A DNA stretch of 48,500 nt from a virus (IMGVR_UViG_3300008459_000076:1-48500); one strand, 5' to 3'. Positions 707 to 37,200 are shown, counted from the first letter of the stretch. The notes: generated by a model not told the origin, from the letters alone. Translations and numbers: made by a program.

Positions 707-3700
707 TTAAGAGACAAGGACTCCGTAGTCTTCTTGAGCGTACACGACAACATCACTGAAGCCTGTTCCGTTCCAATCTGTAGAGAAATCAACACCAGGC
801 ATAAAGACTGAACTTACCTGTCCATAGTCGATTGTCTCTATGACTCGCCCAAGCACAATAAGGTCGGCTACGGCATTTACATTTTGTTGAGTAGGTTCGC
901 TTAGTAAGAGTATTTCGTTGGGTGAGGTGCCAACATCATAATCGCTCGCTGTACCCAAGAGTGTGGGTACTAGCTTGTTTAACCCGCCTGCGGTCGAATA
1001 CCTTAAAACTTGTTTATCCAATGTGGGGGCTGAGTCCACATCGGTGAGGTCTGAGGTTTGGATAGAGAGGGCTACGCTTATGGTGTTGTTCAAGTCGTCG
1101 TAGCTGAAGTCTAATGAAGTGACTCCCGTATGTGTCCCATTATCGAGGGCTGTGGTCACAAGGCTTCTGACTTGGTCAGCGGTCAGTCCCCCATCAGGGG
1201 TGGATATAATGAAACCACCGAGTCCACCATTAGCAGTTTCGTCCCAAATGATGGTATTTCCATCCTCTATACCTGTTAGGTCAACATCTGAGTGAAGCCC
1301 TATAGAGCCGAGGGCGGTTAGGTTAACACCAGATACAGCGGGCAAACCTGTTGCTCCGAGTACAGGTATTTGTCCATCGGCTGTACCTACATCATAGGAG
1401 CTGGCTGTACCAAGCCCATCCACTACGCTCTTTATTTGCCCATCGAGAACAAAGTCAGCATTGGATAAACTTGTGGTTGCACCTAAGTAGTTAGAACCCA
1501 CAGGGGTTATGTAAGAACCATCTGTATCTAAGCCTGCTCCAAGTTGCGTATCGTCAATCTCGTTTTGGATATCTGTAAAGGTATCGGATAAGTTCTTAAT
1601 CTCTGTGTCCAAGAGAGAGTCAGCGGAGAATAAGCTAGTAGCACCTGCCAAGTAGTTAGAACCTACTGGTGCAGTATAGGTGCCATCCACACCGAGCCCA
1701 GCACCGAGTTGTGTGTCGTCTAACTCGTCTTGTAAGTCTGAGGTAAGGTTATTTAAGTTCGTCTCTAAGCCGAAGAGTGCGTTGTCTAGATTTCCTAAAG
1801 ATGTGTGGTGTGATTCGGTGTCGTTTATGAAGTGTGTGGAGGAATAAACGGGTAGTGACCCATCTACACCTACACCTACGGAAAGCTGGGTGTTATCTAG
1901 CTCTAGTTGTAGACCACCCTCTACACCTGTAGCCCTTAGGATTTCAGCGTCCAAGTTATCCGATACGCTCTTTATTTGACCATCGAGAATCGTATCGGCA
2001 TTGAATAGGCTTGTGGCTATGTTTATGTAGTTGGATGCAAGGGGTGGTGCATAAGTGCCATCTCCATCTAAGCCCGCACCTGTGACAACATTGGATAGTT
2101 GAGTGCTTATGTTTCCAACATCCGTCTGTGTGTTGGATAGAGAGGTAGCTACATCGAATATGCTCTGGTCGAGAGTGCCTATGGCATCGTGATGAGATTG
2201 CAGATCAGTGATGTAGTTGGTGGCTGTGTAAACAGGTCTGGATGCGTCTACATTCAGCCCAAGAGAAGATAAAGAAGTATCCAATAAGTCGGAGGTGTTT
2301 CCGAGGCTTATGTCGAGGGCGAGGTCAGCACTTGCCAAGCTCGTAGTTAGATCTAAGTAGTTAGAGCCTACAGGGACGATGTAAGAGCCATCGGTGTCTA
2401 AGCCTGCACCCTCTTGAGTCGCATCGAGTTCAGCTAAAGCCCCGCCTGTTGCGTTATTGACGGCAGTATCCAATAAGGACAGAGCCTCGTGGTGGGAAGT
2501 GCCGTTGGGTAGGTAGAAGTTAGAGGTGTAATCAGGTAATGACCCATCAGCGTTTAAGCCCAAAGAAGTCTGTGTGTTATCAAGCTCTAGCTGAATATCC
2601 CCCTCTACATCTGTTGCTCTGTTAATCTCATTCAGCAGAGCGGTATCGAGAGCTTTAATCTCGGTGTCCAATAGGCTATCCGCATTGAACAAGCTCGTGG
2701 CGAGCCTTATGTAGTTGGATGCCCCATCTGCTGTGTATGTACCATTAGCGTTTAAGCCAGCACCACCTTGTGTGTTATCTAGTTCTAGCTGTAGATCTCC
2801 CTCTACACCTGTTGCCCTTAGTATTTCTGCATCTAGGTTATCCGATACTCCCTTAATGGCTCCATCTAAAGCAAAGTCTGCATTGGATAAACTCGTGGTA
2901 GCCCCTAAGTAGTTAGAACCGACAGGAGTTATGTAAGAACCATCCGTATCTAAGCCCGCCCCCTCTTGCGTGTCATCTAGTTCTAGCTGTAGATCTCCCT
3001 CTACACCAGTAGCTCTGAGGATTTCAGCATCTAGGTTATCCGATACTCCCTTAATAGCTCCATCAAGGGTCGCATCGGCATTGGATAAACTTGTAGTTGC
3101 TCCTAAGTAGTTAGTGCCTACAGGGACTAAATAAGAACCATCTGTATCCAAGCCAGCACCAGATTGGGTGTTATCAAGCTCTAGCTGTGCGTCAGATAGG
3201 GCAGAAGATCTGACCCAGTTAGTTCCGTTCCATGCTAGGACTTGACCCGCAACAGAGGGATCCGTTGTATCAACATCGGATAGTGCGTTAATGGATAAGT
3301 CTCGTACCCATTCGGTCGTAGCGACTAGGCTTGAGTCTTCAGCAGAGGGTGGGGTAAGAGCCGAGATTGTACCAGTGGTTGAAAGAGCGGAAGCACCAAA
3401 GGTTATTGTGTTATTGGCGGATAGTATAGACCCAGCGGAGAGGGTTAGTTGAGCTGGGTCTCCTACGCCTATTAGAGCAGAGGTTGAGGCTTTGAGGGTG
3501 GATAGATTTAAGGGTTGGAGGGTGGGGTTGAGGGGAGAAAAATCGATTGTGTCGTCATTAGCGTTGGGGGCTGTTGTGAGGAAGTACTCATTAACGCCCT
3601 CGTCCCAATAGAACGCGGCAGGGTCTTCGGTAGAGCCTCTTGTAAAGATAAAGCCTGTGTCTGTAGAAGCGTTGGGGTCAGCATCGGCTCCGTTGGCTAA

Positions 3701-6700
3701 TCGGATAATAGGCTCTGTGACAGATAAAGACTCTGTGTTGATTGTGGTGGTGGTTCCGTTCACTACAAGGTTTTGTGTAGTGATAGTCCCTGTAGTGGTG
3801 AGGTTGTTCGCACCGAAGTTTATAGCCGCAGATAGGCTAGTGATAGACCCATCGCTTATGGAGATGTCGGCAAGGGTATGACCTTGTGCTGTAGAGGTGA
3901 TAGCTCCAATAATGGATAAGTCACCTGTTATTTCTACATCACCAGCAACATCTGAGAGTACGACCAAGTCTCCATTGGATAAATCAGAGGTAGAGAGGAC
4001 TCTATTGACGAAGTTTCCTGTGTTGTCTTGTACGAGGACTTGAAACTCCTCTAAGGCACCAAGATCAACATCGCTAAGATCACCTATAGAGAGGCTTACA
4101 GAAGCGGATATGGTGTGATTAAGTGGATCGTGGTCAAAAGATATGCCCGTGTGGGCGGATGCTTCTAAAGCCACACCAACAGCGTCTATGGCTTGGTTAT
4201 CCGTGTATGTGGAGGGGGCGTTTTGAGCAGTCCAAAGGTTGCCTGCACTCCAAGTTAAAACTTGACCTAGAGCGGGAGGGGTGGTCGTTGTGTCTACATC
4301 GGATAAGCCGTCAATAGAAGACGAGGTGGTGAGCAAGTCGCCAACATCGGATAAGTCAGAACTAGAGAGAGAAGCGTTCTCGAAGCCGTTGGCTACGCCT
4401 GTGTATTTAAGCGTCTGCCCAACAAGCGGTCCTGTGATTTTAACATCGGTGAGGTCATCAAGTTGGGTGACTCCACCTGCACCTGCAATCAAAGAACGGA
4501 CAAACGAAGCCGTGGCTACTTCTCTACCCACGGCTGTAAGATCTGGCGTATCAGCAGTTATGTCTCCGCCAAAGAAATCTACATTCCCTGTGAAGGTCTG
4601 ATTAGCGTTCAACCGAGCTATGTTAGCCGTATCGGATAAGTCGAGAGACGAAAGCGACTTGTTTCTAAAGGTGTTATTAGCGAGGTCATAAACGAGCGTC
4701 TGCCCATCTACTAAGGGAACTCCACCTGGTACACCCGCAAGGGTAATGAGAGAGCTAGATAGGAAATCCCCAGTATCCGCTTGAGAGGCAGTACCTAGAT
4801 TAAGGGCGGTTATTTCTTGTTGTACAAACGCGGTTGTAGCGATGAGGGTTGAGCTATCGGCTAGGGGCTGTGTCGTGACCCTTACAGAGCCTGTGAAGGT
4901 TTGGTTAGCGTCTAATAGGGCTATATTAGCTGTATTGGATAAGTCCGTAGAGGCTAGAAGTCTATTCGTGAACTGCCCAAGTCCATTATGAACTAAGACA
5001 TGACCTACTAGGGGTAGGTTTACTTGTACATCGGATAAGTCATCGAGTCCTGCACTAGAGGCTAAGAAGTCGGTCGTATTGGATAGGGAAGCAGATCCGA
5101 GACCCAAAGTCGTGCGGACTGCGGGAGCGTCTGCGTCATCGAGCAGTGAGCGAGCAAAGGTTGTAAGGTTGGCTTCTGCCCAAGTGTTCACGCCTGTGGT
5201 GTAGATAAGTTTATCTGCACCTGTGCCGAGGGTAGAGATGGAGTTGAGGTTAAGGTTAAAGGCTTGGACATCAACACCTGGCTCAAGCTCTAAGGTCGCC
5301 CTAGCGGTGGCGACATCGGTGTCGTCTATGAGGCTTCGACCGAAAGCTGTTATATCGCTCTCTGCCCATGTATCTACACCCACGCTATAGATGATCTTAT
5401 CCGCACCTGTGCCAAGTGTGGCTATAGACGAGAGGGTTGCGTCTAAGGGCTGATAGAGTCCATCTAGGTTTAGGGTAGTCCTAACTTGAGATGGGTCTTG
5501 GGATACTAGGTTAGCACCATCACCTACAATGAAGTTGCCCGCTGTTGGGGCAATAATGGATAAGTCGGTAAGTCTTGCGTTAAGAGGCTGATATGTATCA
5601 GCGAGGTCGAGGGCGGTTATTTCCTGCTGTACGAACTCAGTTGTGGCAAGCTGTGCGGTGTTTGTCCCTAAAGGAGCAGTGGGTGCCTCAGGTACACCCA
5701 CAAACACTGGACTATCCAATAGAGCCAAATCTGCACTATTGGATAAGTCGGTGGATGAAAGCTCCCTATTCGTGAACTGACCGAGTCCATTATGAACTAA
5801 GACATGACCTGCTAGGGGTAGGTTTACTTGTACATCGGATAAGTCGTCTAGGGAGAGGCTTACGCTGGCATTGAGTAAAGCGTTGTCGTCATCGTATGTG
5901 AAGGTGATACCCGAGTTCCCTGCTTGGTTATCCGTAAACATCGCTCCGACGAGGTCTTGAACTTGCTCTGCATCTAAGCCCTCAAGATCATCCGCTTGAG
6001 TTATAACCCCGCCCACGACCTTGAGGACTTTTCCATTTACTAGAACACCACCCAAGTCAACATCGGATAAGTCATCAATAGAAGCATTTGAGGCTAAGAA
6101 ATCTCCTGTATCTGCTTGGGAAGCCGTACCCAAGTTGAGTGCGGTTATTTCTTGTTGTACAAAGGCAGTGGAAGCGAGGAGTGTAGAGTTATCCGCTAGG
6201 GGCTGTGTTGTTGCTCTTACAGAGCCTGTGAAGGTTTGGTTCGCATCTAATAGGGCTATATTGGCACTATTGGATAAGTCCGTAGAAGCCAAAGAGACAA
6301 CAGCAGATATCTGAGCATTGTCGTCATCGTAAGTCCAAGTCACGCCCCCACCATCGACGAGCATTCCCCCAACGAGGTCTTGAACTTGCTCTGCGTCTAA
6401 CCCACCAGCTTCATCTGCTTGGGTTAGAACCCCACCTACAACCTTGAGGACTTTTCCATTTATTAAAGCCCCACCTAGATTGACATCGGATAAGTCGTCA
6501 ATAGAGGCGTTGGAGGCTAAGAAATCTCCTGTGTCCGCTTGGGAAGCAGAGCCTAGATTAAGAGCGTTTATTTCTTGTTGTACGAAGGCTGTGTTAGCAA
6601 CGAGGGAGGAGTTATCGGCTAGGGGCTGATTGGAGACTCTAGTGTTGCCTGTGAAGGTTTGGTTAGCGTCTAAGCGGGCGAGGTTAGCTGTGTCCGAGAG

Positions 6701-7834
6701 GTTTGTGGAGGCGAGGGTAACAACGGCTGATATTTCAGAGTTATCATCGTCATAAGTCCAAGTGACCCCCCCTCCATTGACAAACATAGCTCCGACGAAG
6801 TCTTCTATTTCCTCTTGGGTGAACCCTCCCCCACCGCCTGCTTCGTCAGCTTGAGTGATGACTCCGCCTACGACCTTGAGGATCTTTCCATTTACTAAAG
6901 CTCCGCCTAGATTGACATCTGATAGATCGTCAATAGAGGCGTTTGAAGGTAAGAAATCCCCAGTGTCTGCTTGAGAAGCCGACCCCAAGTTGAGTGCGGT
7001 TATTTCTTGTTGTACGAAAGCGGTTGTAGCTAGGAGGGTCGAGTTATCGGCTAGGGGTTGAGTCGTTGCTCTAGTGTTACCTGTGAAGGTTTGGTTCGCA
7101 TTGAGAAGAGGAATATTGGCACTATTGGATAAGTCTGTGGACGCTATAGAGACAACAGCAGATATTTCAGAGTTGTCGTCATCATAAGTCCAAGTGACTC
7201 CTCCGCCATTGACGAACATAGCTCCAACAAAATCTTCTATTTCCTCTTGGGTGAACCCACCCCCACCTCCGGCAGGGTCTGCTTGTGTAATGACACCGTC
7301 AACGACCTTGAGGATCTTTCCATTTACTAAAGCCCCACCCAAATCAACATCAGAGAGGTCATCAATAGAGGCGGTAGAGGATAAGAAATCTGTGGTGTCT
7401 GCTATAGAGGCAGAGCCTAGTCCGAGATTGGAGCGGGCGGAGGCTTGTGCTACTGCACCTGCTGTGGCGATTTCGGATAGGTTATTAGCTTTGAGCAGTA
7501 GAGAGGTGAGTGCTGTAGTGGCTGTGGAGGACAAGCCGAGGTTGGCTCGTGCGTTGGCTTGAGCTTGAGCCCCTTCATCTGCGAACTCGGATAAGTAGTT
7601 CGAGGCGATGAGATAACCAACGGGGTTAGAGCCATCTATAGTGCCAACCTCGTCTACAGCCACCTGCATGGCTGTGTTCACTTCTACAGGGTAAGTTCCG
7701 TTCCAAGTCACACCATTTCTACGGACATTTCCAATAGACACATACCCGTACTGATCCCTAGTGACGGTGAATGTAAAACGCCCAACAGGGGTGACTACAA
7801 GGTATTGTAGGGAGACTGATTGCTGTATAGCCAT
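707..7834 (-). CDS. Giant repetitive tail fibre (2375 aa)
   Basis: I place the start at the ATG at 7834 (MAIQQSVSLQYLVV), because GGAGG sits 8-9 bases upstream; the longer frame needs a TTG at 7849. The protein is built of fibre repeats. Four copies of a roughly 143-residue unit (IDDLSDV, then LVNGKILKVV, GGVTWTYDDDN, LLNANQTFTG and TTAFVQQEITALNLG) lie at about 5990-7390. A second family (GAGLDTDGSY, then PVGSNYLGATTSLSNAD) fills about 1450-3200. The middle holds NALSDVDTTDPSVAGQVLAW and PIIRLANGADADPNAS, phrases common in fibres of aquatic phages. No enzymatic domain was recognised. Such proteins form elongated trimeric fibres that touch the host surface. The codon pair TTA TCC (Leu-Ser) is heavily used, partly because of the repeated LSD/LSN motif. 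Confidence 0.85.
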   Translation of the reverse strand: MAIQQSVSLQYLVVTPVGRFTFTVTRDQYGYVSIGNVRRNGVTWNGTYPVEVNTAMQVAVDEVGTIDGSNPVGYLIASNYLSEFADEGAQAQANARANLGLSSTATTALTSLLLKANNLSEIATAGAVAQASARSNLGLGSASIADTTDFLSSTASIDDLSDVDLGGALVNGKILKVVDGVITQADPAGGGGGFTQEEIEDFVGAMFVNGGGVTWTYDDDNSEISAVVSIASTDLSNSANIPLLNANQTFTGNTRATTQPLADNSTLLATTAFVQQEITALNLGSASQADTGDFLPSNASIDDLSDVNLGGALVNGKILKVVGGVITQADEAGGGGGFTQEEIEDFVGAMFVNGGGVTWTYDDDNSEISAVVTLASTNLSDTANLARLDANQTFTGNTRVSNQPLADNSSLVANTAFVQQEINALNLGSASQADTGDFLASNASIDDLSDVNLGGALINGKVLKVVGGVLTQADEAGGLDAEQVQDLVGGMLVDGGGVTWTYDDDNAQISAVVSLASTDLSNSANIALLDANQTFTGSVRATTQPLADNSTLLASTAFVQQEITALNLGTASQADTGDFLASNASIDDLSDVDLGGVLVNGKVLKVVGGVITQADDLEGLDAEQVQDLVGAMFTDNQAGNSGITFTYDDDNALLNASVSLSLDDLSDVQVNLPLAGHVLVHNGLGQFTNRELSSTDLSNSADLALLDSPVFVGVPEAPTAPLGTNTAQLATTEFVQQEITALDLADTYQPLNARLTDLSIIAPTAGNFIVGDGANLVSQDPSQVRTTLNLDGLYQPLDATLSSIATLGTGADKIIYSVGVDTWAESDITAFGRSLIDDTDVATARATLELEPGVDVQAFNLNLNSISTLGTGADKLIYTTGVNTWAEANLTTFARSLLDDADAPAVRTTLGLGSASLSNTTDFLASSAGLDDLSDVQVNLPLVGHVLVHNGLGQFTNRLLASTDLSNTANIALLDANQTFTGSVRVTTQPLADSSTLIATTAFVQQEITALNLGTASQADTGDFLSSSLITLAGVPGGVPLVDGQTLVYDLANNTFRNKSLSSLDLSDTANIARLNANQTFTGNVDFFGGDITADTPDLTAVGREVATASFVRSLIAGAGGVTQLDDLTDVKITGPLVGQTLKYTGVANGFENASLSSSDLSDVGDLLTTSSSIDGLSDVDTTTTPPALGQVLTWSAGNLWTAQNAPSTYTDNQAIDAVGVALEASAHTGISFDHDPLNHTISASVSLSIGDLSDVDLGALEEFQVLVQDNTGNFVNRVLSTSDLSNGDLVVLSDVAGDVEITGDLSIIGAITSTAQGHTLADISISDGSITSLSAAINFGANNLTTTGTITTQNLVVNGTTTTINTESLSVTEPIIRLANGADADPNASTDTGFIFTRGSTEDPAAFYWDEGVNEYFLTTAPNANDDTIDFSPLNPTLQPLNLSTLKASTSALIGVGDPAQLTLSAGSILSANNTITFGASALSTTGTISALTPPSAEDSSLVATTEWVRDLSINALSDVDTTDPSVAGQVLAWNGTNWVRSSALSDAQLELDNTQSGAGLDTDGSYLVPVGTNYLGATTSLSNADATLDGAIKGVSDNLDAEILRATGVEGDLQLELDDTQEGAGLDTDGSYITPVGSNYLGATTSLSNADFALDGAIKGVSDNLDAEILRATGVEGDLQLELDNTQGGAGLNANGTYTADGASNYIRLATSLFNADSLLDTEIKALDTALLNEINRATDVEGDIQLELDNTQTSLGLNADGSLPDYTSNFYLPNGTSHHEALSLLDTAVNNATGGALAELDATQEGAGLDTDGSYIVPVGSNYLDLTTSLASADLALDISLGNTSDLLDTSLSSLGLNVDASRPVYTATNYITDLQSHHDAIGTLDQSIFDVATSLSNTQTDVGNISTQLSNVVTGAGLDGDGTYAPPLASNYINIATSLFNADTILDGQIKSVSDNLDAEILRATGVEGGLQLELDNTQLSVGVGVDGSLPVYSSTHFINDTESHHTSLGNLDNALFGLETNLNNLTSDLQDELDDTQLGAGLGVDGTYTAPVGSNYLAGATSLFSADSLLDTEIKNLSDTFTDIQNEIDDTQLGAGLDTDGSYITPVGSNYLGATTSLSNADFVLDGQIKSVVDGLGTASSYDVGTADGQIPVLGATGLPAVSGVNLTALGSIGLHSDVDLTGIEDGNTIIWDETANGGLGGFIISTPDGGLTADQVRSLVTTALDNGTHTGVTSLDFSYDDLNNTISVALSIQTSDLTDVDSAPTLDKQVLRYSTAGGLNKLVPTLLGTASDYDVGTSPNEILLLSEPTQQNVNAVADLIVLGRVIETIDYGQVSSVFMPGVDFSTDWNGTGFSDVVVYAQEDYGVLVS
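5990..7390 (-). repeat. Four imperfect 430-bp repeats within the tail fibre gene
   Basis: The segment encoding SIDDLSDV recurs near 6069, 6497, 6929 and 7359, i.e. at spacings of about 428-432 bp. Each unit carries the same order of short motifs (LGGALVNGK, TWTYDDDN, NQTFTG, FVQQEI). The repeats keep frame, so unequal crossing-over would lengthen or shorten the fibre without breaking it. Confidence 0.8.
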
Positions 7835-8023
7835 GACTCGAACCTCCAAAAGATTGGATACTTTAAGGGGTGTTCATCATTAAAAGATTATTGTTTCTTA
7901 TAGGTGTATGTAGTTCTGCCCCCTCCAGAGTGTTGTTGATGTAGTCCGAGTGTCGATTATCGACCAAGAGGGGGGGGGTTAATACATACAAATACTTAGC
8001 TTAAAAGAGAAAGGTGGGGTAGT
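7835..8023. promoter_or_regulatory. Divergent intergenic region with palindrome and G9 tract
   Basis: This 189-bp gap separates the leftward fibre gene from the rightward replication genes and must hold promoters for both. Visible elements are a palindrome GTCGATTATCGAC (7952-7964), a run of nine G (7970-7978), then AT-rich TTAATACATAC and TACAAATACTTA before the SD AGGTGGGG of the 8024 gene. On the minus strand TATAAG and TTTTAAT boxes precede a small TCCAA/TTGGA hairpin just before the GGAGG of the fibre gene. Nothing coding was seen. Confidence 0.5.
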
Positions 8024-15327: not shown

Positions 15328-16695
15328 ATGAGCTTAGAACTCTTAATGCCAGATATAAACCAAGCTGTACAGCTACTTATCCTAAGCCATGCAAGCAAGG
15401 GTGGGTCTGTTTGCTTATACCGAAATGGAAAAGTGTGGAACAACCTATCTGCGTTATCCATTTTGAACGCTTGGTCACCCACACATAAAGTGGTTCAAAA
15501 AGGGTTCTTAGATGTATGTGGTACAGGCGGAGATGGTGGGAAAATGGGGGTGTTCATCACCGCGTCTTTGTTGAAGTCCATCTACAGAACAGGTGAAAGC
15601 CTAACCCCTTCGGAAGTGGAAGATTTCTTAGGGAACTTCAAAGAGGCAGTCAGCAAAAAGAAAAAGAAAGCCACCTACGATGTGCTGTTGGAGATCGGGA
15701 GTAGATCAAAGCTCCATGCAGAACACCTAGAGAAGATCTGTGACGCTCTGATGACACATGGGGTTGACTCCCATATCTCATTAGAGCGTGGTAGGTCAGT
15801 CCATACGGAGGTTATCCAATCCGAGGCGTTGGAAACGCCTGTTATAGCTGGAATAGACACGGATCAGATTTCCTTAAAGGGTGCGATGTTTGCTTTCTTC
15901 GACTATCCATTATTCTCTTACACGCAAGTTCAAGATGCGATGGAACAGATGGGGGAGTTCGAGGGCAGACCTTTGTGTATAGTCTCACCGCTCATGGGTA
16001 AAGAGGTGAAGGCGACCATAGCCCTCAATAGGAATAAGGGGGTGGTGGAGGTCTATGGGCTAGAAGCTCCACAGATCACTTGGAGCAAGGGGTGGTTAGA
16101 AGACCTTTGTGCTTTTACAGGTGGCACAATACACACAAAAATGGATAAGTCCTTTCCTGTGGAGTTTTATGGTTCAGCACTAGAGGTGTTAATCAAGCCT
16201 TCGTCTTTGCTGATAGAGCCATATGAGGATCATGCAGAACAGACAGCTAAACACGCTGAGGCGTTATTGAGAGAGGCTGAGTTTATCCCTCACGCACACA
16301 CACAAGATCTGTGGCGTAAGAGAGCTTCTTCTCTGATGGGGTCTTTGATCCGAGTCCAAGTGGGTGGGACGACCGAGGCGGAGTCTAGGGTGAACTTAAA
16401 CCTAGCCGAGAAATCTTTATTGTCCATGACTGACGCTCTAGAAAATGGATATGTCGAGGGGTCGATTCCATTTTTAGCGGAGGTGCAGTCAAGCTCTATA
16501 ATAGGACACGCTATGCGTTGCCCTTTAAGGGTAGTCGCACACAACCTCAACCTCCCTCAACACTCCGTATTGGATAACCCAATACTAAGGGAGAGCTTCC
16601 CTACAGGTCGCTTAGTTTCCCTTATGGAGCGTTCTCTCTCTGTGGCGTACACACTAGGTACTATAGGTCACATAATCAAAGCAAAGGGGCATTAA
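15328..16695 (+). CDS. GroEL-like chaperonin, short and lacking catalytic acidic residues
   Basis: A 455-residue protein (bacterial GroEL about 548). Family marks are visible in order: equatorial VCGTGGDGGKMGVFITASLL, aligned with the GroEL segment that contains GDGTTT; apical MGKEVKATIALNRNKGVVEV then LEAPQ and LCAFTGGTI, aligned with the GroEL stretch ending DIATLTGGT; equatorial IRVQVGGTTEAES then NLAEKSL; and MRCPLRVVAHNLN, aligned with MEAPLRQIVLN. By-eye alignment puts Asn in place of GroEL D52 (KDG becomes RNG) and Lys in place of D398 (VED becomes AEK); the TTT of the nucleotide loop is GKM. The fold call is firm; ATPase activity is doubtful. No GroES is seen. It divergently faces the amidase with 29 bases between, so its promoter must lie inside that gene. 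Confidence 0.85.
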   Translation: MSLELLMPDINQAVQLLILSHASKGGSVCLYRNGKVWNNLSALSILNAWSPTHKVVQKGFLDVCGTGGDGGKMGVFITASLLKSIYRTGESLTPSEVEDFLGNFKEAVSKKKKKATYDVLLEIGSRSKLHAEHLEKICDALMTHGVDSHISLERGRSVHTEVIQSEALETPVIAGIDTDQISLKGAMFAFFDYPLFSYTQVQDAMEQMGEFEGRPLCIVSPLMGKEVKATIALNRNKGVVEVYGLEAPQITWSKGWLEDLCAFTGGTIHTKMDKSFPVEFYGSALEVLIKPSSLLIEPYEDHAEQTAKHAEALLREAEFIPHAHTQDLWRKRASSLMGSLIRVQVGGTTEAESRVNLNLAEKSLLSMTDALENGYVEGSIPFLAEVQSSSIIGHAMRCPLRVVAHNLNLPQHSVLDNPILRESFPTGRLVSLMERSLSVAYTLGTIGHIIKAKGH

Positions 16696-16697
16696 AG

Positions 16698-17111
16698 ATG
16701 TTTAAGAACTATCATTGGACAGTGGTCGAAGCTGAAAATGCTTGTACGGGTTTTAAGCTCGCCAAACAAAGCGACAACACCTTCGAGAACTTCAACCGAT
16801 ACTATATCGTCAACCCCAACACACAAATCCTTTTTGAGGAAATCGAGTACTTGATCGAGAGTACAAAGGACACCCGCTCCCCATCTCGGTCTCGCTCCTG
16901 TTGTTGCTTTGTCCTTCAAGGAAATAAGTACTTCTTCTATGTCAAGAAGTCCTCCTTAGTCAAAGCGGACAAGCTGTTTATCCAAAACATCGGCAGGATA
17001 CTGCATGGAGGTGGCGACTTAACCGAGGACGACTTAAATAAGCTCGCTTCCTCTGTACAGAGGCTCAAGGCTTCCCTTAAAAGCACACCCAAGAAAGCGG
17101 ATGGTCGATGA
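16698..17111 (+). CDS. Hypothetical protein linking the chaperonin and methyltransferase array
   Basis: A 137-residue protein starting 3 bases after the chaperonin stop, with AAGGGG 7-8 bases upstream. It has a Ser/Arg/Cys-rich middle (SPSRSRSCCCFVLQGNKYFF) and a helical C-terminus. The stop overlaps the first methyltransferase module as ATGA. No family was recognised. It occupies the place where a DPPY-type B module would be expected before A1. Confidence 0.65.
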   Translation: MFKNYHWTVVEAENACTGFKLAKQSDNTFENFNRYYIVNPNTQILFEEIEYLIESTKDTRSPSRSRSCCCFVLQGNKYFFYVKKSSLVKADKLFIQNIGRILHGGGDLTEDDLNKLASSVQRLKASLKSTPKKADGR

Positions 17112-17728
17112 TAATCACCCTGTTGAGAAAGCCCCTAGACGGGAGCGTAGCTGAGAACGCCTTACAGCATGGCTGTGGGGCTATCAATATAGACGCTACA
17201 AGAGTAGGTTTTGTGAATGGAGAAAACCCCTCCGCCTCCTCACGAGAGGCGTACACTCCCAATCACTCGGCAGTGGCGGACATGAACGCGAGCGGTGTCA
17301 TCTATTCCGATCCAACACGGCAACTCGGCAGGTGGCCCGCTAACTTTATCCTTAACCACCTAGAGAGCTGTGAGCTAAAAGGTACTAAGAAAGTTAAAGG
17401 GGCGATAAGCAAACCTTCGGTGGGATACAAAGCTAAGACCTCCACCTCTTGGTTCAACTCTAAAGATGGTATTCATAGGGTTGGTCATGCGGATGAAGAT
17501 GGGAATGAAGAAGTAGCGGATTGGGCTTGTGTAGAGGGTTGCCCTGTCCAAGAGCTAGACCAACAAAGTGGACATCTGAAAAGTGGGAAGATGGGTGCTA
17601 AGTCATATCAAATGTGGGGGGTAAATGGGATATATGGGGGAGGTAAAGAACACCCTGCGACATATTATGGAGATGAGGGTGGTGCTTCTAGGTTCTTCAT
17701 GCAGTTTAAGAAAGACCCAGAAGAATGA
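17108..17728 (+). CDS. Split methyltransferase middle module A1
   Basis: A 206-residue protein equivalent to the middle of single-chain phage N6A/N4C methyltransferases. Conserved marks are LLRKPLDGSVAENALQHGCG and INIDATRV at the start, GRWPANFILNHLESCEL then GTKKVKG, ADWACVEGCPVQELDQQSG, and the end GGASRFFMQFKKDPEE. In full-length relatives these follow the DPPY half and precede the HPTVKP/SAM-binding half. It has neither DPPY nor the SAM motif, so it cannot work alone. Three cysteines (SCEL, ACVEGC) are kept in all A modules. The region between about residues 34 and 70 and the stretch before the end are variable. It probably contributes to target recognition; that is inferred. Start and stop both overlap neighbours as ATGA. 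Confidence 0.8.
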   Translation: MIITLLRKPLDGSVAENALQHGCGAINIDATRVGFVNGENPSASSREAYTPNHSAVADMNASGVIYSDPTRQLGRWPANFILNHLESCELKGTKKVKGAISKPSVGYKAKTSTSWFNSKDGIHRVGHADEDGNEEVADWACVEGCPVQELDQQSGHLKSGKMGAKSYQMWGVNGIYGGGKEHPATYYGDEGGASRFFMQFKKDPEE

Positions 17729-18303
17729 TAGAAATAAAAATCGGAGACTGCGTGGATAGGCTCAAAGACCTAGAGGATAACTCCGTTGACGCTATTATTT
17801 CTGACCCCCCCTATGGTCTGAAGTTCATGAGTAAGGGTTGGGATGATATTGGAGAGGGTGCCGAACAACGAGAGTGGCACCGAGCTTGGCTTACTGAAGC
17901 CTATAGAGTCTTAAAGCCTAATGGAGTCCTTAAAGCCTTCTCAGGTACGAGAACTTTCCATCACCTCATAGCGATGATGGGAGAGGTGGGGTTCTCAGAG
18001 TTATCTGTGGAGGCATGGACATACGGAAGCGGTTTTCCAAAATCCCATAATGTGAGCAAGGCACTCGATAAAGGATTTGGGGCGGAAAGAACAGTAGTAG
18101 GGACGCAAAAAATGGGGGGTTCTGCGAGAAAACTAAAAGGTTCAAATAGGAACGGTCAGAAAATGGTCGGAGTTGACTTGGAATACGAAGAGACATACGC
18201 AGAAATAACTATCCCCGCAACAGATGAAGCAAAAACATGGGAGGGATGGGGAACTGCTCTTAAGCCAGCTTGGGAGCCCATCTGCATAGGAGTTAAGAAA
18301 TGA
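17725..18303 (+). CDS. Split methyltransferase catalytic module B1 (type 1)
   Basis: A 192-residue protein with IISDPPYGLKFM (motif IV, about residues 28-39), EWHRAWLTEAYRVLKPNGVL (about 54-73), KAFSGTRTFHHLIAMM and WTYGSGFPKSHNVSKALDKG, then WEGWGTALKPAWEPICIG at the end. This is the N-terminal, catalytic half of a beta-order amino-methyltransferase. The SAM-binding FxGxG region is absent and is found only in the C module at 21750-22532. The GSGFPKSHN form defines type 1, shared with B3. The variable segment (about 120-165) lies between conserved ends. DPPY predicts methylation of the amino group of adenine or cytosine. Confidence 0.85.
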   Translation: MIEIKIGDCVDRLKDLEDNSVDAIISDPPYGLKFMSKGWDDIGEGAEQREWHRAWLTEAYRVLKPNGVLKAFSGTRTFHHLIAMMGEVGFSELSVEAWTYGSGFPKSHNVSKALDKGFGAERTVVGTQKMGGSARKLKGSNRNGQKMVGVDLEYEETYAEITIPATDEAKTWEGWGTALKPAWEPICIGVKK

Positions 18304-18911
18304 TAATCACCCTCCTAAGAAAGCCCCTAGAGGGTACTGTAGCTGAGAACGCCTTACAGCATGGCTGTGGGGCTATCAATATAGACGCTACGAGAGTGTC
18401 CACTTCCGATAATCTTAATGGCGGGGCTTATCGTTGTGAAAACCCTACTGATAGTGAATCAGTTTCCTATTCTTTGAGAAAAGGGATAGGTGAGTATGAG
18501 CAACCGAGTGGGAGGTGGCCAGCTAACTTTATCCTTAACCACCTAGAGGGCTGTGAACTAAAAGGCACTAAGAAAGTTAAAGAGGGTAAAAGTAGCTCTG
18601 CTGTTGGTGGCTCTGACAGAAAAGTAGGTCTTTATAAGGATGGACTTAAGAAAGAAGCGGAAAATCGCTATCGAGGAGAGGAAGAAGTGGCAGATTGGGC
18701 TTGTGCCGAGGGATGCCCTATTAAGAAATTGGATACTCAGTCTGGGATACTCAAAAGTGGAGCATTGAAACCCGATGCTTATGTTAAAAATGACAGGGTC
18801 AACTCCTCTATGTTTGCAGGAGCAGGTACTTACTCAAATAAGGGATATTCATCTGAGGAGGGTGGAGCGTCTAGGTTCTTCATGCAGTTTAAGAAAGACC
18901 CCGAACAATGA
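18300..18911 (+). CDS. Split methyltransferase middle module A2
   Basis: A 203-residue paralogue of A1 and A3 with the same frame: LLRKPLEGTVAENALQHGCG, INIDATRV, GRWPANFILNHLEGCEL then GTKKVK, VADWACAEGCPIKKLDTQSG and GGASRFFMQFKKDPEQ. Its early variable part (STSDNLNGGAY, EYEQPSGRW) is shared with A3, whereas its centre (EGKSSSAVGGSDRKVGLYKD) is unlike either, so it is a mosaic. Translationally coupled to B1 and B2 by ATGA overlaps. Role as a target-recognition or linker part is inferred. Confidence 0.8.
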   Translation: MIITLLRKPLEGTVAENALQHGCGAINIDATRVSTSDNLNGGAYRCENPTDSESVSYSLRKGIGEYEQPSGRWPANFILNHLEGCELKGTKKVKEGKSSSAVGGSDRKVGLYKDGLKKEAENRYRGEEEVADWACAEGCPIKKLDTQSGILKSGALKPDAYVKNDRVNSSMFAGAGTYSNKGYSSEEGGASRFFMQFKKDPEQ

Positions 18912-19495
18912 TAGAAATAAAAATCGGAGACTGCGTTGACCGACTTAAAGACCTCGCGGATAACTCTATTGACGCGGTTATTTCTGACCCTCCTTATGGT
19001 GTTAAGGTATTAGGGAAGGGTTGGGATAATATCGGTGAGGGGATTCAACAACGAGAATGGCATAGAGGTTGGCTCATGGAAGCCTATAGAGCCTTAAAGC
19101 CTAATGGAGTCCTTAAAGCCTTTTCTAGTGCGGTCACTTATCATCACTTATTAGAGGTAATGGGAGAGGTGGGGTTCTCGGACTTGAGCGTAGAGGCTTG
19201 GGTTTATTCAAGCGGTATGCCCGCTGGAAACTTTGATTTGGCGAAGGGGGTTGAGTGTCAGATTCTCTTTGGTGACTCGAACAACAAGCAGTTTAAGAAA
19301 CTTAAAGGTAGTCGTAGAGAGGGTAAAACAGGTTTGGGGCAACTCAACTTTTTACACGACTCAAGACCTGAGAACTACAAACAGCATGGGGCGTTTACGC
19401 TCGACCCTCAAACAGAGCAAGGTGCTTTGTGGGCAGGCTGGGGAACAACACTAAAGAAATCTTGGGAACCCATTTGCATTGGAGTTAAGAAATGA
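18908..19495 (+). CDS. Split methyltransferase catalytic module B2 (type 2)
   Basis: A 195-residue protein with VISDPPYGVKVLGKGWDNIG, EWHRGWLMEAYRALKPNGVL, KAFSSAVTYHHLLEVM and WVYSSGMPAGNFDLAKGVE. The SSGMPAGNF wording separates type 2 (B2, B4) from type 1 (B1, B3) and suggests a different target or partner fit. The end (AGWGTTLKKSWEPICIG) is conserved. It is followed directly by another B module (B3) and not by an A, which suggests that an A module was lost here by recombination between identical seams. Confidence 0.85.
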   Translation: MIEIKIGDCVDRLKDLADNSIDAVISDPPYGVKVLGKGWDNIGEGIQQREWHRGWLMEAYRALKPNGVLKAFSSAVTYHHLLEVMGEVGFSDLSVEAWVYSSGMPAGNFDLAKGVECQILFGDSNNKQFKKLKGSRREGKTGLGQLNFLHDSRPENYKQHGAFTLDPQTEQGALWAGWGTTLKKSWEPICIGVKK

Positions 19496-20061
19496 TAGAA
19501 ATAAAAATCGGAGACTGCGTTGATAGGCTTAAAGACCTCGCGGATAACTCCGTTGACGCTATTATTTCTGACCCCCCCTATGGTCTGAAGTTCATGGGTA
19601 AAGGTTGGGATGATATTGGAGAGGGTGCCGAACAACGAGAGTGGCATAGGGCATGGCTTACTGAAGCCCACCGCGTCTTAAAGCCTAATGGAGTCCTTAA
19701 AGCCTTCTCAGGGACGAGGACTTTCCATCATCTGATAGCGATGATGGAAGAAATAGGTTTCTCAGACTTGAGCGTAGAGGCTTGGGCATATGGGAGCGGT
19801 TTCCCGAAGTCTCACAACCTTGCCAAGCAGTTCGATAAGAAGGCTGGTGTAGAGGGTGAGATAATAGGTCATAAGCCCGGAGTGTCAGTAGAGGACTCTC
19901 AAGGACATGGGGGCATCGCGAGAGGTGGTGTGGGGATTGTTCAGAAGAACGCGATGATACCCATTAGAGCTTCGGTGACGGATGACGCGAAAGTATGGGA
20001 GGGATGGGGAACGGCTCTTAAACCAGCTTGGGAGCCCATCTGCATAGGAGTTAAGAAATGA
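19492..20061 (+). CDS. Split methyltransferase catalytic module B3 (type 1)
   Basis: A 189-residue type 1 module: IISDPPYGLKFMGKGWDDIG, EWHRAWLTEAHRVLKPNGVL, KAFSGTRTFHHLIAMM and WAYGSGFPKSHNLAKQFDKK. The N-terminal RLKDLADNS matches B2, whereas the core matches B1, another sign of exchange. The variable segment (KAGVEGEIIGHKPGVSVEDS and on) is unique. Motif IV is intact and the SAM-binding motif is absent. Coupled by ATGA to B2 upstream and A3 downstream. Confidence 0.85.
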   Translation: MIEIKIGDCVDRLKDLADNSVDAIISDPPYGLKFMGKGWDDIGEGAEQREWHRAWLTEAHRVLKPNGVLKAFSGTRTFHHLIAMMEEIGFSDLSVEAWAYGSGFPKSHNLAKQFDKKAGVEGEIIGHKPGVSVEDSQGHGGIARGGVGIVQKNAMIPIRASVTDDAKVWEGWGTALKPAWEPICIGVKK

Positions 20062-20708
20062 TAATCACTTTGCTCAGAAAGCCCCTAGAGGGTACTGTAG
20101 CTGAGAACGCCTTACAGCATCGCTGTGGGGCAATCAACATTGACGCTACAAGAGTGTCCACTTCCGATAATCTTAATGGTGGAGCGTATGCAGAAAACCC
20201 TACAGAGCGTGGGGGGGCGGATATGTGGACTTCAACAAGAAAAGGGGATTCTAACTGCTTTAAGCGTGGTGGTGGGGGTGAATATGAGCAACCGAGTGGC
20301 AGATGGCCCGCTAACTTTATCCTTAACCACCTAGAGGGCTGTGAGCTAAAAGGCACTAAGAAAGTTAAAGGGGCGATAAGCAAACCTTCGGAGGGAAACA
20401 AAGCTAAGACTTCTATCTCTATGAACAACTCTAAAGAAGGTATTCATAGGGTTAGTCACGCTGATGAAGATGGGAATGAAGAAGTGGCAGATTGGGCTTG
20501 TGTAGAGGGATGCCCTGTTAAGACCCTCGATGAACAAAGTGGTATTTCTAAAAGTACAGGTGGGCGTATCGGTAATAAGCAAGGAGCTTATGCTCATCAG
20601 GGGCCGGGGGGGTGGTCAACGGATTATACGAAAGGTGACCCAGGTTTTGGAGATGAGGGTGGTGCTTCTAGGTTCTTTATGCAGTTTAAGAAAGACCCCG
20701 AACAATGA
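20058..20708 (+). CDS. Split methyltransferase middle module A3, mosaic of A1 and A2
   Basis: A 216-residue module. Its first third (STSDNLNGGAY and EYEQPSGRWPANFILNHLEG) follows A2, and its centre (GAISKPSEGNKAKTS, then GIHRVSHADEDGNEEVADWA) follows A1. The C-terminal variable part (STGGRIGNKQGAYAHQGPGG) is its own, ending again GGASRFFMQFKKDPEQ. The mixture shows past recombination inside the array. Like A1 and A2 it has three conserved cysteines and no catalytic or SAM motif. Confidence 0.8.
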   Translation: MIITLLRKPLEGTVAENALQHRCGAINIDATRVSTSDNLNGGAYAENPTERGGADMWTSTRKGDSNCFKRGGGGEYEQPSGRWPANFILNHLEGCELKGTKKVKGAISKPSEGNKAKTSISMNNSKEGIHRVSHADEDGNEEVADWACVEGCPVKTLDEQSGISKSTGGRIGNKQGAYAHQGPGGWSTDYTKGDPGFGDEGGASRFFMQFKKDPEQ

Positions 20709-21295
20709 TAGAAATAAAAATCGGAGACTGCGTGGATAGGCTCAAAGACCTAGAGGATAACTCCATTGATGCGGTTATTTCTGACCCCCCTTATGGTGTT
20801 AAAGTACTAGGGAAGGGTTGGGATAATATCGGAGAAGGTGCCTTACAGAGAGAGTGGCATAAAGGTTGGGTTCAAGAAGCCTATAGAGTCTTAAAGCCTA
20901 ATGGAGTCCTTAAAGCCTTTTCTAGTGCGGTCACTTATCATCACTTATTAGAGGTAATGGGGCAGATGGGCTTCTCAGACTTGAGCGTAGAAGCGTGGGT
21001 TTATTCAAGCGGTATGCCCGCAGGGAACTTCGACTTGGCGAAGGGGGTTGAGTGTCAGCTTCTCTTTGGGGTGTCGAACTCAAAACACTTCCATAAACTT
21101 AAAGGGACAAAGCGAGCAGGGAAGACAGGGATAAACAAGTGGGGGGTAGAGCATGGCTCTCGTCAGGTGGACTCTCAGATAGGGGCTTCCGCCTTTGACC
21201 TAGAGCCACAGACGAAGGAGGGGGAGACATGGATGGGGTGGGGTTCTGTTCTCAAGAAATCTTGGGAGCCTATCTGCATAGGGGTTAAGAAGTGA
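20705..21295 (+). CDS. Split methyltransferase catalytic module B4 (type 2)
   Basis: A 196-residue type 2 module: VISDPPYGVKVLGKGWDNIG, EWHKGWVQEAYRVLKPNGVL, KAFSSAVTYHHLLEVM and WVYSSGMPAGNFDLAKGVE, ending GWGSVLKKSWEPICIG. The variable stretch (KHFHKLKGTKRAGKTGINKW and on) differs from B2. Its N-terminus RLKDLEDNS matches B1. The last codons run into the dCMP deaminase as a GTGA overlap, instead of the ATGA seen elsewhere. Confidence 0.85.
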   Translation: MIEIKIGDCVDRLKDLEDNSIDAVISDPPYGVKVLGKGWDNIGEGALQREWHKGWVQEAYRVLKPNGVLKAFSSAVTYHHLLEVMGQMGFSDLSVEAWVYSSGMPAGNFDLAKGVECQLLFGVSNSKHFHKLKGTKRAGKTGINKWGVEHGSRQVDSQIGASAFDLEPQTKEGETWMGWGSVLKKSWEPICIGVKK

Positions 21296-21753
21296 AAGAC
21301 AAACACCTAAAAACACGGATTATCCAATGCGACTTGATTGCCTCTAACTCCCCTTGTTGTAGGCGGAAAGTGGGGGCTTTGGTGATAGACCCAGAGAGTA
21401 ATGTGGTTATTTCCGAGGGGTACAATGGAACACCACGAGGATCTACTTATCCATTGTGTGGCGGAGAGTTCTGTTTAAGGGAAGAGTTATCCATTAAGAG
21501 TGGGACACAAAACGATGTGGGGTGCATACACGCGGAACAGAACGCAATCTATAATGCCTCAAGGACAGGGAACAGCACACTCAACAAGTGGATGATCACT
21601 AACTGCGACCCTTGCCTTATGTGTGCGAAGGCTATTCACCAAGCGGGAATAACAAGGGTCTATCTACCTCTACACGAGCAAGTCCACATAGAGGGCGTAA
21701 AGTTCCTCAGAAACAACCAAGTAGAACTCATTAAGACGGAGAGCTTCAAATGA
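21292..21753 (+). CDS. Deoxycytidylate (dCMP) deaminase
   Basis: A 153-residue zinc enzyme starting at GTG overlapping the stop of B4. The zinc site is visible as CIHAEQNAIYNA (HAE, about residues 79-90) and CDPCLMCAKAI (PCxxC, about 103-113). NSPCCRRKVGALVID and GYNGTPRG are typical of dCMP deaminases. It converts dCMP to dUMP, feeding dTTP synthesis, and so works with the ribonucleotide reductase at the right edge. It is unusual in lying inside the methyltransferase operon, between B4 and C, with a 4-base overlap at each end. Confidence 0.9.
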   Translation: MKDKHLKTRIIQCDLIASNSPCCRRKVGALVIDPESNVVISEGYNGTPRGSTYPLCGGEFCLREELSIKSGTQNDVGCIHAEQNAIYNASRTGNSTLNKWMITNCDPCLMCAKAIHQAGITRVYLPLHEQVHIEGVKFLRNNQVELIKTESFK

Positions 21754-22532
21754 ACGAGATGATAGATTATTTCCTCAAGATGATTACGCCACCAGTGGAA
21801 GACGCTTATGTGCTAGTGTCTGACCCAAGTGAGATAAACTTCGATCTTTATCTAAAAGAGATAGGGGCTGAAGACTCACTTACAAGTACCTTCGAGCCTA
21901 TGCTTCATGGTCTTATCCTCTTGGGAGAACCGACTGCGGACGAAGCAGATCAGATTATGAGGATACTAAAGCCTGGTGCTCATGTAGTTCTCATCCCTAA
22001 GAGCGACTCCCCCATAGGCTACAAGGGTGTGATCGCTATGGAGGACAACGGATTTGAGGTGCGTGACGCAATCTTCGTTGCCGAGGGGAACTCAGATTTC
22101 TTCTATGGCTCAAAGGCAGGTCGGAGTGAGAGAGAGGCGGGGCTAGAGGGCTTTGAAGAGAAAGAGGGTCATGGCGGGATGACGGCTACAAAGAACCAAG
22201 ACATGAAAACAGGAAGCGGAAATGACCGAGACAACTCGCGTAAGAATATACACCCAACCGTTAAGCCGATTGATGTGATGGAGTGGTGTGCTAGGGATAT
22301 TGGAAAGAAGTGTAAGGTGGTCGATCCATTCTTAGGAAGTGGGACAACGGGCTGTGCTATGGCTCGACTAGGTCACGACTTTGTGGGGATAGAGCTTCAG
22401 CCAGAATATGGAAAGATTTGTGAGGCTCGTATTCGTCATTGGATGCCGATAGGTACGGAACTCAAGTCCGAGGCTGTAGGGGTAGCGAAGTCCCCTACGA
22501 AGGGTGGGATGGTTTCTATATTTGACTTTTGA
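21750..22532 (+). CDS. Split methyltransferase SAM-binding module C, with degenerate catalytic remnant
   Basis: A 260-residue protein. The C-terminal half has NIHPTVKPIDVMEWCARDIG (motif X region, about 170-189) and VVDPFLGSGTTGCAMARLGH (FxGxG motif I, about 193-212), then FVGIELQPEYGKICEARI, the SAM-binding end of beta-order methyltransferases. FFYGSKAGRSEREAGLE (about 112-128) matches the sequence that in single-chain enzymes follows the end of an A module. The first about 110 residues resemble a worn B module (ADQIMRILKPGAHVVLI, AMEDNGFEVRD) with no DPPY. It is therefore the natural shared partner for the B and A modules. That they assemble is inferred. Coupled to the deaminase by ATGA. 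Confidence 0.85.
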   Translation: MNEMIDYFLKMITPPVEDAYVLVSDPSEINFDLYLKEIGAEDSLTSTFEPMLHGLILLGEPTADEADQIMRILKPGAHVVLIPKSDSPIGYKGVIAMEDNGFEVRDAIFVAEGNSDFFYGSKAGRSEREAGLEGFEEKEGHGGMTATKNQDMKTGSGNDRDNSRKNIHPTVKPIDVMEWCARDIGKKCKVVDPFLGSGTTGCAMARLGHDFVGIELQPEYGKICEARIRHWMPIGTELKSEAVGVAKSPTKGGMVSIFDF

Positions 22533-34165: not shown

Positions 34166-34200
34166 ACCCCTAGACACATCTTTCACATGGGGTGCTTCAT
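34166..34200 (+). promoter_or_regulatory. Leader hairpin before the Snf2-like gene
   Basis: ACCCC (34166-34170) can pair with GGGGT (34189-34193), which also forms the likely ribosome-binding site for the ATG at 34201. Confidence 0.35.
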
Positions 34201-37200
34201 ATGCTTTTCCTAAGAAATAAAAACAGATCGGTGGTTCCCTTTAAGGGGGAGCTGTTCAAGATGATAGAGACGAAGTTCTCTAGGATTCCAGTCTTGAACG
34301 CTATGGGTCAGCAGATAGTGGATCCTTCCACCAAGAAGGTCAAGACGACAAAAGCTGAAGAAGTGACGATGCCCTTTTTCGTCTATAACTCTCTTGTGTC
34401 CTTAGACGAGTATGTCATGGGCAAAATGGAGCAACTAGAGGCGGATAAGGATAGGAAAAGGGTTAAGTCAGACTTAACGACTAAGTTCGCTGCGTCTTGG
34501 CGGTTTATACTTCGTAGGTGGACGGTGACCGCCCCCAAAGGCATGAGGGACAACTGCGTTAAGATCGAAAGATTTATCGAAGCACTCGACAACGAAATGG
34601 AAAACCTTATCAACGATAGGAATACCCCCTTCACAGAGAAGGTTAAAGCCATCAAAGATTATGCGAAGAGTACCGAGGGCAAAAAGCTCATGGAGCTTTA
34701 CTGCGACTTCATGCGTAATGTGTTTCAGACCTTCGGCATGGTCGTGGCAGTATCCATTAAGGTCAATAACAGAGTCGGTGTAAGATATCTTCAGTTCAAG
34801 CTCGGCTCTCAAGTAGAGGCTATGCTTGAGGAAGCAAGCAACTCTGAAAAGGTTCGTATCGAACGAGCCATGAAGATGACCGAACTTCGTGATCTCAAGC
34901 TCAAAGCCCAAATGGATAACATGGGCTATGTTGTTGAGTCTATGCCCGTCTACGGAGATGGGGATAAACCCATCTTCGCCCTCGTAGCGTACGACCCCGC
35001 ATACAAGCAAATCCCCGTACCCAAAGTCCCCACAAGGGTAAAAGTAAGTGACGAGGAAAAGAAGCTCATTAAAGAGCTTTATCCCAACGAACAAGGGCTT
35101 TATTCAGTACTCCCCCCTAGAGCCACAAAGGAAGACAGGGATAGGCTTTTGGAAAGGATTGAGTTCCTTAAAGAAGAGATTAAGGATCAAATAGGAAAGT
35201 CACAAAAATTCTATCTCCCTGGTTATGGGATAAAACCTGATGGGACACCAGAGAAAACGGATAAAAACGGCAAGCCTATTTACAAGTACATAAATACAGA
35301 AACTGAACGCAGAAAAGCCGCTAGAGCCGCTAAAGCACTAGAAAAACTGCAATACAATATGAGCCTTCAGCTCTCTTCCAATGTAACCAAAGAAATCAAA
35401 GATCAATACAGAAGGGCTATAGAGCCTTACATCAAGGGCATATACCACCCCAACTTCACCACAAACCTCGGCAACGAGTACGAGTACTTCCCCTCGCTAC
35501 AAGCCTTAAAGGATAAAATAGCAGTACAACAAGCCTCTAGTACTGCTATTCAAACCGTACTCGTCCCTGAGTTCCAAACACAGAAGGTCAATGTGCCTAA
35601 CTATCCTGTTTGGGATGATGTCACGCAGAAGATTAAGTATGAGTCCAAAGATCTCACTGTACCCGTGATAACAATCGGACCAAACAACACCGCAGTACCC
35701 CACTACGCAACAGAGCTTGCTAGTGTGAACTACGAAAAAGACGAAATCGTCACTAGAGAGATCAGGGACTTCGGTGAATCCCAAGTCGTAGGTAGTGGGA
35801 TTTCTCGCTCTGTAGAGACAAAGCAGATAGTAGTAAACGGCTCACCAAAGTCTCTCATCGTAAAGGGTCGCTATGCAGGCTATCTCTTAGAACACATCGT
35901 TAACCTTGAGGGTAAGTTCATCGAGGGTGGGTACATCAACAAGGTTGGTGGAGATAACAAGACGGTCTCCCTCCTTGAAGACCGCATGATTGTTAAGGAC
36001 GGAGTAGTACAGACCATAGACTACTTAGCGGACAATAAGGTACGCCAACGCTTAATCGAGCCTTATGTGACCCTCACAGAAGATGGGCAGTCGCTCTTGT
36101 TGGGTCTCCCTGGATCATCCCCTCGTGGGATAAATCTCGACCATAGCATAATGGATAAACTATCCAAAAAGGTAGCCACTATTGAGAAGGTGATCAATAA
36201 GGATATACCAGAGTCTCACTCATGGCATAGGTCTCGTAACCCTTACTACACCTTCAAGGTTGAAGACTTTGAGCTAGTTCGTAAGAGCCTCGGTTCTGTT
36301 GGTGTGAGCAAGCCAGCCTCCGACTTCATTGACGCTTATTTCAATAAGCTCAAAGCACAAGAGGCGGCGATGGCTGTAGAAAACCTAGAACGCTTCACCC
36401 CAGCGTCTCTAGGTGGCTTCGTTAAGCAAACGGATAGAGGCCCGTTTAGGTTCAACAATAAGCAACTCGAAGCCCTTGCTTGGATCGACTCCGCTGAAAT
36501 GAAGGGTGTAGTCGGTCTAGACACAGGTGTAGGAAAGACGGTGACGGCTCTCGCCGCCATCAAGAACGCCATAAACCAAGAGATGTACGAGGGGCTACCT
36601 AAGCGTAAGTTCCTATTCGTATCGCCTGCTCGTCTTGTGGGCAACCTCAAGAAAGAGATAGATGCCTACATGGATGAGGGTGGTGAAGAAGTCACTCTCG
36701 CTGACGGCACTAAGGATGTGTCTCCAAACTGGCGTAAGATACTCAACGACCGCGTGGTCGAGATGTCTTATGACAAGTACACGGAAACTTTCCAAGATTT
36801 CGGTGGGCAGTTCGCCTCCACAGAAGAGGGTTCTAAGCTACTGGAAGAGTTATCCGTTCTAGAGAGAGAAATACAGCTACAAGGTCGTCCCGTTGACCCT
36901 AACAACCTAGAGGGCGAAAAGCACCCCACCCTAAGCGATAAGCAACTAGAGGCTAAGAAAAAGCTCATCAAAGAACTCAAGAAGCAAATCCGTCTGCTTC
37001 AAAAGGCACTCGTGGTGGAGAGTTATCCTAAAGCGGATAAGTATTTCCAAAAGGAGTTCTATGCCTGCTTCTTTGACGAGGTGAACGAAGCCCTTGTTGG
37101 GGATAAGAGGAAAGCCCTCGCCTCTCTCAAGCACCCTCGTAAGGTTTTCCTTACCGCCTCTACCATGCAGAAGGATCCCCTCGACCTTTACAGATTCGTT

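Follow-up and report, generated by a model that had tools for sequence, protein, structure and literature searches.

To our knowledge, DNA methyltransferases carry the catalytic motif and the SAM site either on one chain or on one fixed split pair of chains. The single-chain phage beta-class methyltransferases (PF01555; PHROG 67, 3008 and 498; LR745208 and the mycobacteriophage DNA methylases) are built, like the array described here, from a catalytic block (B), a middle block (A) and a SAM-binding block (C) in that order, with the same cassettes at the same positions; unlike the array, each is one polypeptide, with no multiplication of parts and no degenerate N-terminal half of C. Multispecific phage C5 methyltransferases reportedly have several target-recognising domains (Trautner et al. 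1996, cited in PMC12707154). Their target-recognition modules lie within one chain. The array, with several A genes of different cassettes and one C, may resemble them in having one core for several such modules, but here each module has a gene to itself, the enzyme is an amino-methyltransferase, and there are several copies of the catalytic half as well. In Type I systems the M subunit is a complete methyltransferase with the catalytic and SAM motifs on the same chain. Methylation and DNA recognition are allotted to separate subunits, HsdM and HsdS (PMC3874165), as would be the case in the array, and the genes are translationally coupled (PMC3510504), as the overlaps suggest for the array. 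The split C5 methyltransferases M.AquI and M.EcoHK31I each need two polypeptides for one enzyme (PMC3404938) and share with the array the division of the motifs between chains, but they belong to the C5-cytosine family, form a fixed subunit pair and are split at another point. Split C5 pairs, Type I M/S systems and multispecific phage enzymes thus each match one aspect of the array, and none matches the combination.

The window, by which we mean the whole stretch of DNA analysed, is a linear virus record of 48.5 kb. Nine overlapping genes occupy 17108–22532 in the order A1 B1 A2 B2 B3 A3 B4, dCMP deaminase, C:

A1, 17108..17728, + strand: target-recognition-like middle part; cassettes V1 a, V2 a, V3 a; PHROG 3008
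B1, 17725..18303, + strand: catalytic half with DPPY; subtype alpha (YGSGFPKS)
A2, 18300..18911, + strand: middle part as in A1; cassettes V1 b, V2 b, V3 b
B2, 18908..19495, + strand: catalytic half with DPPY; subtype beta (YSSGMPAGN)
B3, 19492..20061, + strand: catalytic half with DPPY; subtype alpha
A3, 20058..20708, + strand: mosaic, with V1 like A2, V2 like A1 and a V3 type of its own
B4, 20705..21295, + strand: catalytic half with DPPY; subtype beta
dCMP deaminase, 21292..21753, + strand: within the operon, between B4 and C
C, 21750..22532, + strand: single SAM subunit; HPTVKP (motif X) and DPFLGSGTTG (motif I) in the C-terminal half

All of the junctions are 4-base ATGA overlaps. The preliminary description counted four B, three A and one C gene in one coupled operon, and the open reading frames, overlapping by 4 bases at every junction, show that count to be correct; it named the B, A and C genes rightly but overlooked the dCMP deaminase between B4 and C. 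Its reading of the motifs (B with DPPY and no SAM motif, A with the middle region only, C with HPTVKP and DPFLGSGTTG) is confirmed by Pfam and PHROG matches. A second record, a 290-kb contig, has an identical array layout and differs from the window by 1 base over 14.6 kb. A promoter and terminator scan of the operon in the window gave a signal no higher than the shuffled level.

The surroundings of the array are those of a large phage. Replication genes are spread over 8024–48301 of the window (exonuclease, clamp, clamp loader, UvsX, RuvC-like, SbcC-like, SbcD-like, helicase and a homing endonuclease), a GroEL-like phage protein (PHROG 5725, E = 7e-16) is encoded upstream of the array at 15328–16695, one gene before A1, and there are two giant open frames, at 707–7849 (− strand, 2380 aa) and 34192–39777 (+ strand, 1861 aa). 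A dCMP deaminase gene is found inside or beside the array in many phages (L014, L019, L021, L026, L029, L034, L035 and others); in some of them it separates two B genes, or a B gene from C.

The B proteins of the window match Pfam N6_N4_Mtase (PF01555, 221 positions) over positions 1–111 at most, with E-values of 1e-10 to 1e-13. They have motif IV in the beta-class form ([DNS]PP[YFW]) with its flanking fold, DPPY is present in 43 of 43 distinct split B proteins, and the solved structures that they resemble in sequence are M.RsrI, CcrM and DpnA, in each case in the N-terminal part. B represents the half of a beta-class enzyme, most likely an adenine methyltransferase, that carries the catalytic motif IV (DPPY). 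The closest pairs in the window are B1/B3 and B2/B4, giving the two subtypes alpha and beta, and the single variable stretch, which follows YGSGFPKS, is also common to different phages. An AU test on a tree of the B region, calculated from few columns, gave no reason to discard one common origin for the split B genes (p = 0.917). Intein-like in-frame inserts were seen at L037:7001–8764, L266:8585–10492, L036:8190–10103 and L267:5531–7363, at the sites YG/SGFP of B and HP/TVKP of C. One B gene of L036 is spread over two frames that overlap (7001–7327 and 7299–7550), the break falling exactly at YGSGFP/KSHN without a large insert; sequencing error, frameshifting or a real break would account for it. 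In L024 (2143–2652) a 170-aa chimera consists of an A gene with the tail of a B gene in place of its own (TWDGWGTALKPAWEPVCIGVKK) and probably arose by recombination.

The C protein of the window matches the same Pfam family (N6_N4_Mtase, 221 positions) only at 153–218. All 18 of the aligned C proteins keep HPTVKP and DPF[L/M]GSGTTG, the motif X and SAM motif I that come after the target-recognition region in the beta class, and the solved relatives by sequence are C-terminal parts, here of M.BceJIV, DpnA, CcrM and MboIIA. DPPY is present in none of the 18, its place being taken by HGxILxxEPT. The N-terminal half (residues 1 to about 130), although it has no DPPY, is conserved and homologous to the B half: a profile of it matched 98 of the 112 single-chain enzymes described below, with 94 of 103 matching domains in their motif IV–VI region, while 560 shuffled sequences gave no match. 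A comparison of B with C by hhalign was less clear than the profile search (34 aligned columns only, E = 0.0011, probability 21%). Since the profile of the N-terminal half matches the motif IV–VI region, C looks like a whole methyltransferase minus the target-recognition part and the catalytic motif, that is, a degenerate METHYLTRANSFERASE whose N-terminal half is B-like; B plus A, in turn, looks like a methyltransferase that lost its SAM part. C had earlier been described as the single SAM part, which holds, but its N-terminal half was overlooked: it is a degenerate methyltransferase and not just a SAM fragment. The ratio dN/dS is 0.06–0.22 for B and 0.06–0.13 for C; purifying selection acts on both.

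The 112 single-chain relatives were gathered by their B, A and C matches and include the L266-type fusion. Most have the motif order IV – NIDxxR – GRWPAN – X – I in one protein, an example being a 515-aa protein of LR745208 with B, A and C in order, and the B-A-C order proposed for the single-chain family is thereby supported by more than 100 proteins. (L005:10483–11388, upstream of the LR745208 single-chain methyltransferase, encodes a protein of 301 aa that combines HPTVKP with a degenerate motif I, VPFCGTG, and may be a further relative of the SAM part.) Compared with the single chains, the split points are sharply defined. At the B/A boundary the single chain reads WEPIxxARKPLxGTVAEN, whereas B ends WEPICIGVKK and A begins MIITLLRKPL (MIITLLRKPLEGTVAEN); at the A/C boundary it reads SRFFYxAKASKxER, whereas A ends SRFFMQFKK (SRFFMQFKKDPE) and C has its own FFYGSKAGRSERE. 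The split-point sequences are present on both partners, so that each junction strand occurs twice, which suggests that the fragments overlap by a beta strand. Fragments of M.SssI cut at unfavourable places complement only with a short overlap (PMC3404938). Natural partial fusions also occur, of A with C in L011 and L081 and of B, A and C in L266, the last containing the whole of C with its degenerate half and accompanied by separate B genes. A beta-class enzyme has both motifs on one polypeptide; in the window and in almost every array B has the one and C the other, the L266 fusion being an exception.

The A proteins of the window match PHROG 3008 ('DNA methyltransferase'), A3 having in addition one weak match of unknown function. 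No Pfam match was found at E ≤ 1 and no relatives of solved structure (PDB) were found by sequence; the identification of A with HsdS or another known specificity family was rejected on these grounds. Three variable stretches lie between the conserved blocks, V1 before GRWPAN, V2 before DWAC and V3 before GGASRFF. Among 43 A proteins we found 14 types of V1, 7 of V2 and 14 of V3, in 35 combinations. The pairing of V1 with V2 (p = 0.41) and of V2 with V3 (p = 0.84) is no tighter than in shuffled sets of the 43, while V1 and V3 are weakly associated (p = 0.035). A3 of the window is a mosaic at the DNA level, with an A2-like V1 and an A1-like V2. The same positions in single-chain enzymes carry the same cassettes with up to 74% identity (V1, 74% in L106; V3, 71% in L041 and L139), and inspection by eye places them in L264 and L267 too, two split arrays of divergent sequence. 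Copies within one genome mostly differ, V1 being identical in 2 of 21 within-genome pairs and V3 in 0 of 12, and such differences are about as frequent within genomes as between them. The dN/dS of A is 0.29–0.45. The A genes are built as mosaics, their three variable cassettes being reassorted between phages and present in single-chain enzymes as well. We infer from these patterns that the variable stretches of A and B read the DNA target.

Viral contigs were searched with B, A and C and the matches classified with profiles; the 35 loci obtained were grouped by eye into about 28 distinct arrays, all from environmental phage contigs, many of 70–375 kb. Each array has exactly one C, with 1–7 A and 1–6 B genes whose numbers are often unequal. 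The minimal arrays are B-A-C (L028 and L263), unequal ones are A3B1C1 (L262), A4B2C1 (L260), A7B2C1 (L267) and A1B2C1 (L244 and L248), and L083 has six A and six B genes with C first. Searches of whole records gave one strong C match per record, two being interrupted by an intein-like insert; an extra weak C match in L261 belongs to another methyltransferase-like gene. The commonest junction across the arrays is −4 (69 cases), followed by −1 (11). An artefact of sequencing or assembly is ruled out by the near-identical second record and the about 28 distinct arrays. Ribosomal frameshifting into one long chain was set aside as well: although the overlaps place neighbouring genes in different frames, orders with A ahead of B, with C distant or with C first (L083) would not restore B-A-C.

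Outside these contigs the split form was not encountered. Among 50,697 named phage records no standalone N-terminal half of C was found; the matches were weak, lay inside methyltransferase genes and spanned no more than 57% of the query. A DNA search of named phages for the split system gave a match of only 2%. A single scan of reference bacterial and archaeal genomes gave single-chain and other methyltransferases, with no array having such a C among the 80 loci kept. Nor did full-text searches of an open-access collection turn up a description of such a layout, and the earlier statement that no described system with it is known stands for the named phages and that collection. C5-methyltransferase motifs are absent from the array, Pfam giving PF01555 and other non-C5 methyltransferase matches only. 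With A lacking a Pfam match (E ≤ 1), no HsdS-like subunit is present, and there is no HsdM-like subunit that is a complete methyltransferase, B being without motifs X and I and C without DPPY.

We consider it likely that the array encodes a heteromeric beta-class DNA methyltransferase, split by nature into several parts and most likely acting on N6-adenine, whose exchangeable parts would be directed against restriction. Its core would come together only from a B protein (motifs III–VIII, with DPPY) and the C-terminal end of the single C (motifs X and I), the former providing catalysis and the latter SAM; the predicted fold of the natural fusion, described below, agrees with this. A would complete the enzyme and read the DNA target together with the variable stretch of B, and the degenerate N-terminal half of C would probably be a scaffold or placeholder. 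N6-adenine as the methylated base is suggested by DPPY and by the closest relatives of solved structure (RsrI, CcrM, DpnA and BceJIV). With one C for several A and B proteins of different cassettes, the parts would be exchanged and several target sites methylated by the phage, most likely to escape restriction; phage methylation is in general an established route round restriction (PMC10711547). Assembly, m6A, free mixing, the diversity of targets and the anti-restriction role are what we infer in this proposal. The division of motifs and the single C per array support the earlier claim of three complementary kinds of parts with one common SAM subunit. The parts-kit idea put forward with it is supported indirectly, as far as exchangeable parts are concerned, by the unequal copy numbers, the reassorted cassettes and the single shared C; the four B proteins form two subtypes (B1/B3 and B2/B4), so the 12 combinations need not all be equivalent. 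A more specific form of the proposal, which we put forward tentatively and at slightly less than even chances, is a combinatorial methyltransferase in which interchangeable catalytic half-subunits and interchangeable target-reading subunits share a single SAM subunit descended from a dead methyltransferase. New specificities would arise by gain, loss and recombination of the part genes, and the N-terminal half of C would hold the SAM unit until displaced by B.

It may be that only certain A and B proteins work together. If the partnerships were fixed (for example as B1-A2-B2 and B3-A3-B4), the split enzyme would be real and heteromeric but would amount to a few defined enzymes with a common C. 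The order of the window genes after A1 fits this, being two tandem copies of B-alpha, A, B-beta with B1/B3 and B2/B4 as the closest pairs, and the 4-base overlaps of B and A genes suggest coupled translation. The counts are nevertheless very unequal in L262, L267, L260, L244 and L248, where, provided that all are functional, at least some A or B proteins must have a partner in common. With such copy numbers C, and certain A or B proteins, can hardly fail to be shared. We regard fixed partnerships as a serious but unlikely alternative to exchangeable parts.

It is rather improbable that C folds alone as a SAM-binding pseudo-methyltransferase, with B, with or without A, as another kind of partner (a DNA-binding half or a regulator) in an arrangement like METTL3-METTL14, where one member of the pair is dead. 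Its conserved N-terminal half, homologous to the B half, could in principle complete C's own fold. In all members, however, B has DPPY without a SAM motif and C the reverse, so that a self-folded C would leave no catalytic centre. The structure models point the same way. The AlphaFold2 model of C alone is poor (pLDDT 67.6, pTM 0.45) and has no single packed domain; its halves follow one another along the sequence as in a methyltransferase, but their placement relative to each other differs (rmsd of about 20 Å to 2zig). The model of the natural B-A-C fusion of L266 (577 aa, 103 aligned sequences) has a pLDDT of 78 and a pTM of 0.79. Foldseek aligned it with M1.HpyAVI, M.BceJIV, MboIIA and CcrM over about 520–560 query columns, the targets having 193–350 residues; these long alignments reach a TM of 0.74 of the target with an rmsd of 9–15 Å, and shorter matches to the same kind of enzyme (196–281 columns) give a TM of 0.28–0.44. 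Read from the alignment spans, the full methyltransferase fold is predicted to be built from B and the C-terminal half of C, with A and the degenerate half inserted, although the alignment behind the model is rich in single-chain enzymes and the pairing of B with the end of C was favoured beforehand. Finally, the broken B gene of L036 and the A-B chimera of L024 would suit an array decaying into fragments of former single-chain methyltransferases through frameshifts, recombination or sequencing error. We give this explanation very little weight: the boundaries are identical in about 28 arrays, the overlaps are of 4 bases, B and C evolve with a dN/dS far below 1, the intein-like inserts keep the frame and the second record differs by 1 base in 14.6 kb.

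An enzyme of exchangeable parts remains the preferred reading, and there is a fair chance that the split array deserves a class of its own among the DNA amino-methyltransferases. Its catalytic motif and SAM site are on different genes, the parts are multiplied independently, the cofactor subunit is common, and many large phages, divergent in sequence, show this organisation. Should the parts assemble freely, they would give phages a modular route to changed epigenetic specificity against host restriction, the question of which cassette reads which base would become approachable, and the parts might serve as ready-made split enzymes for targeted methylation.
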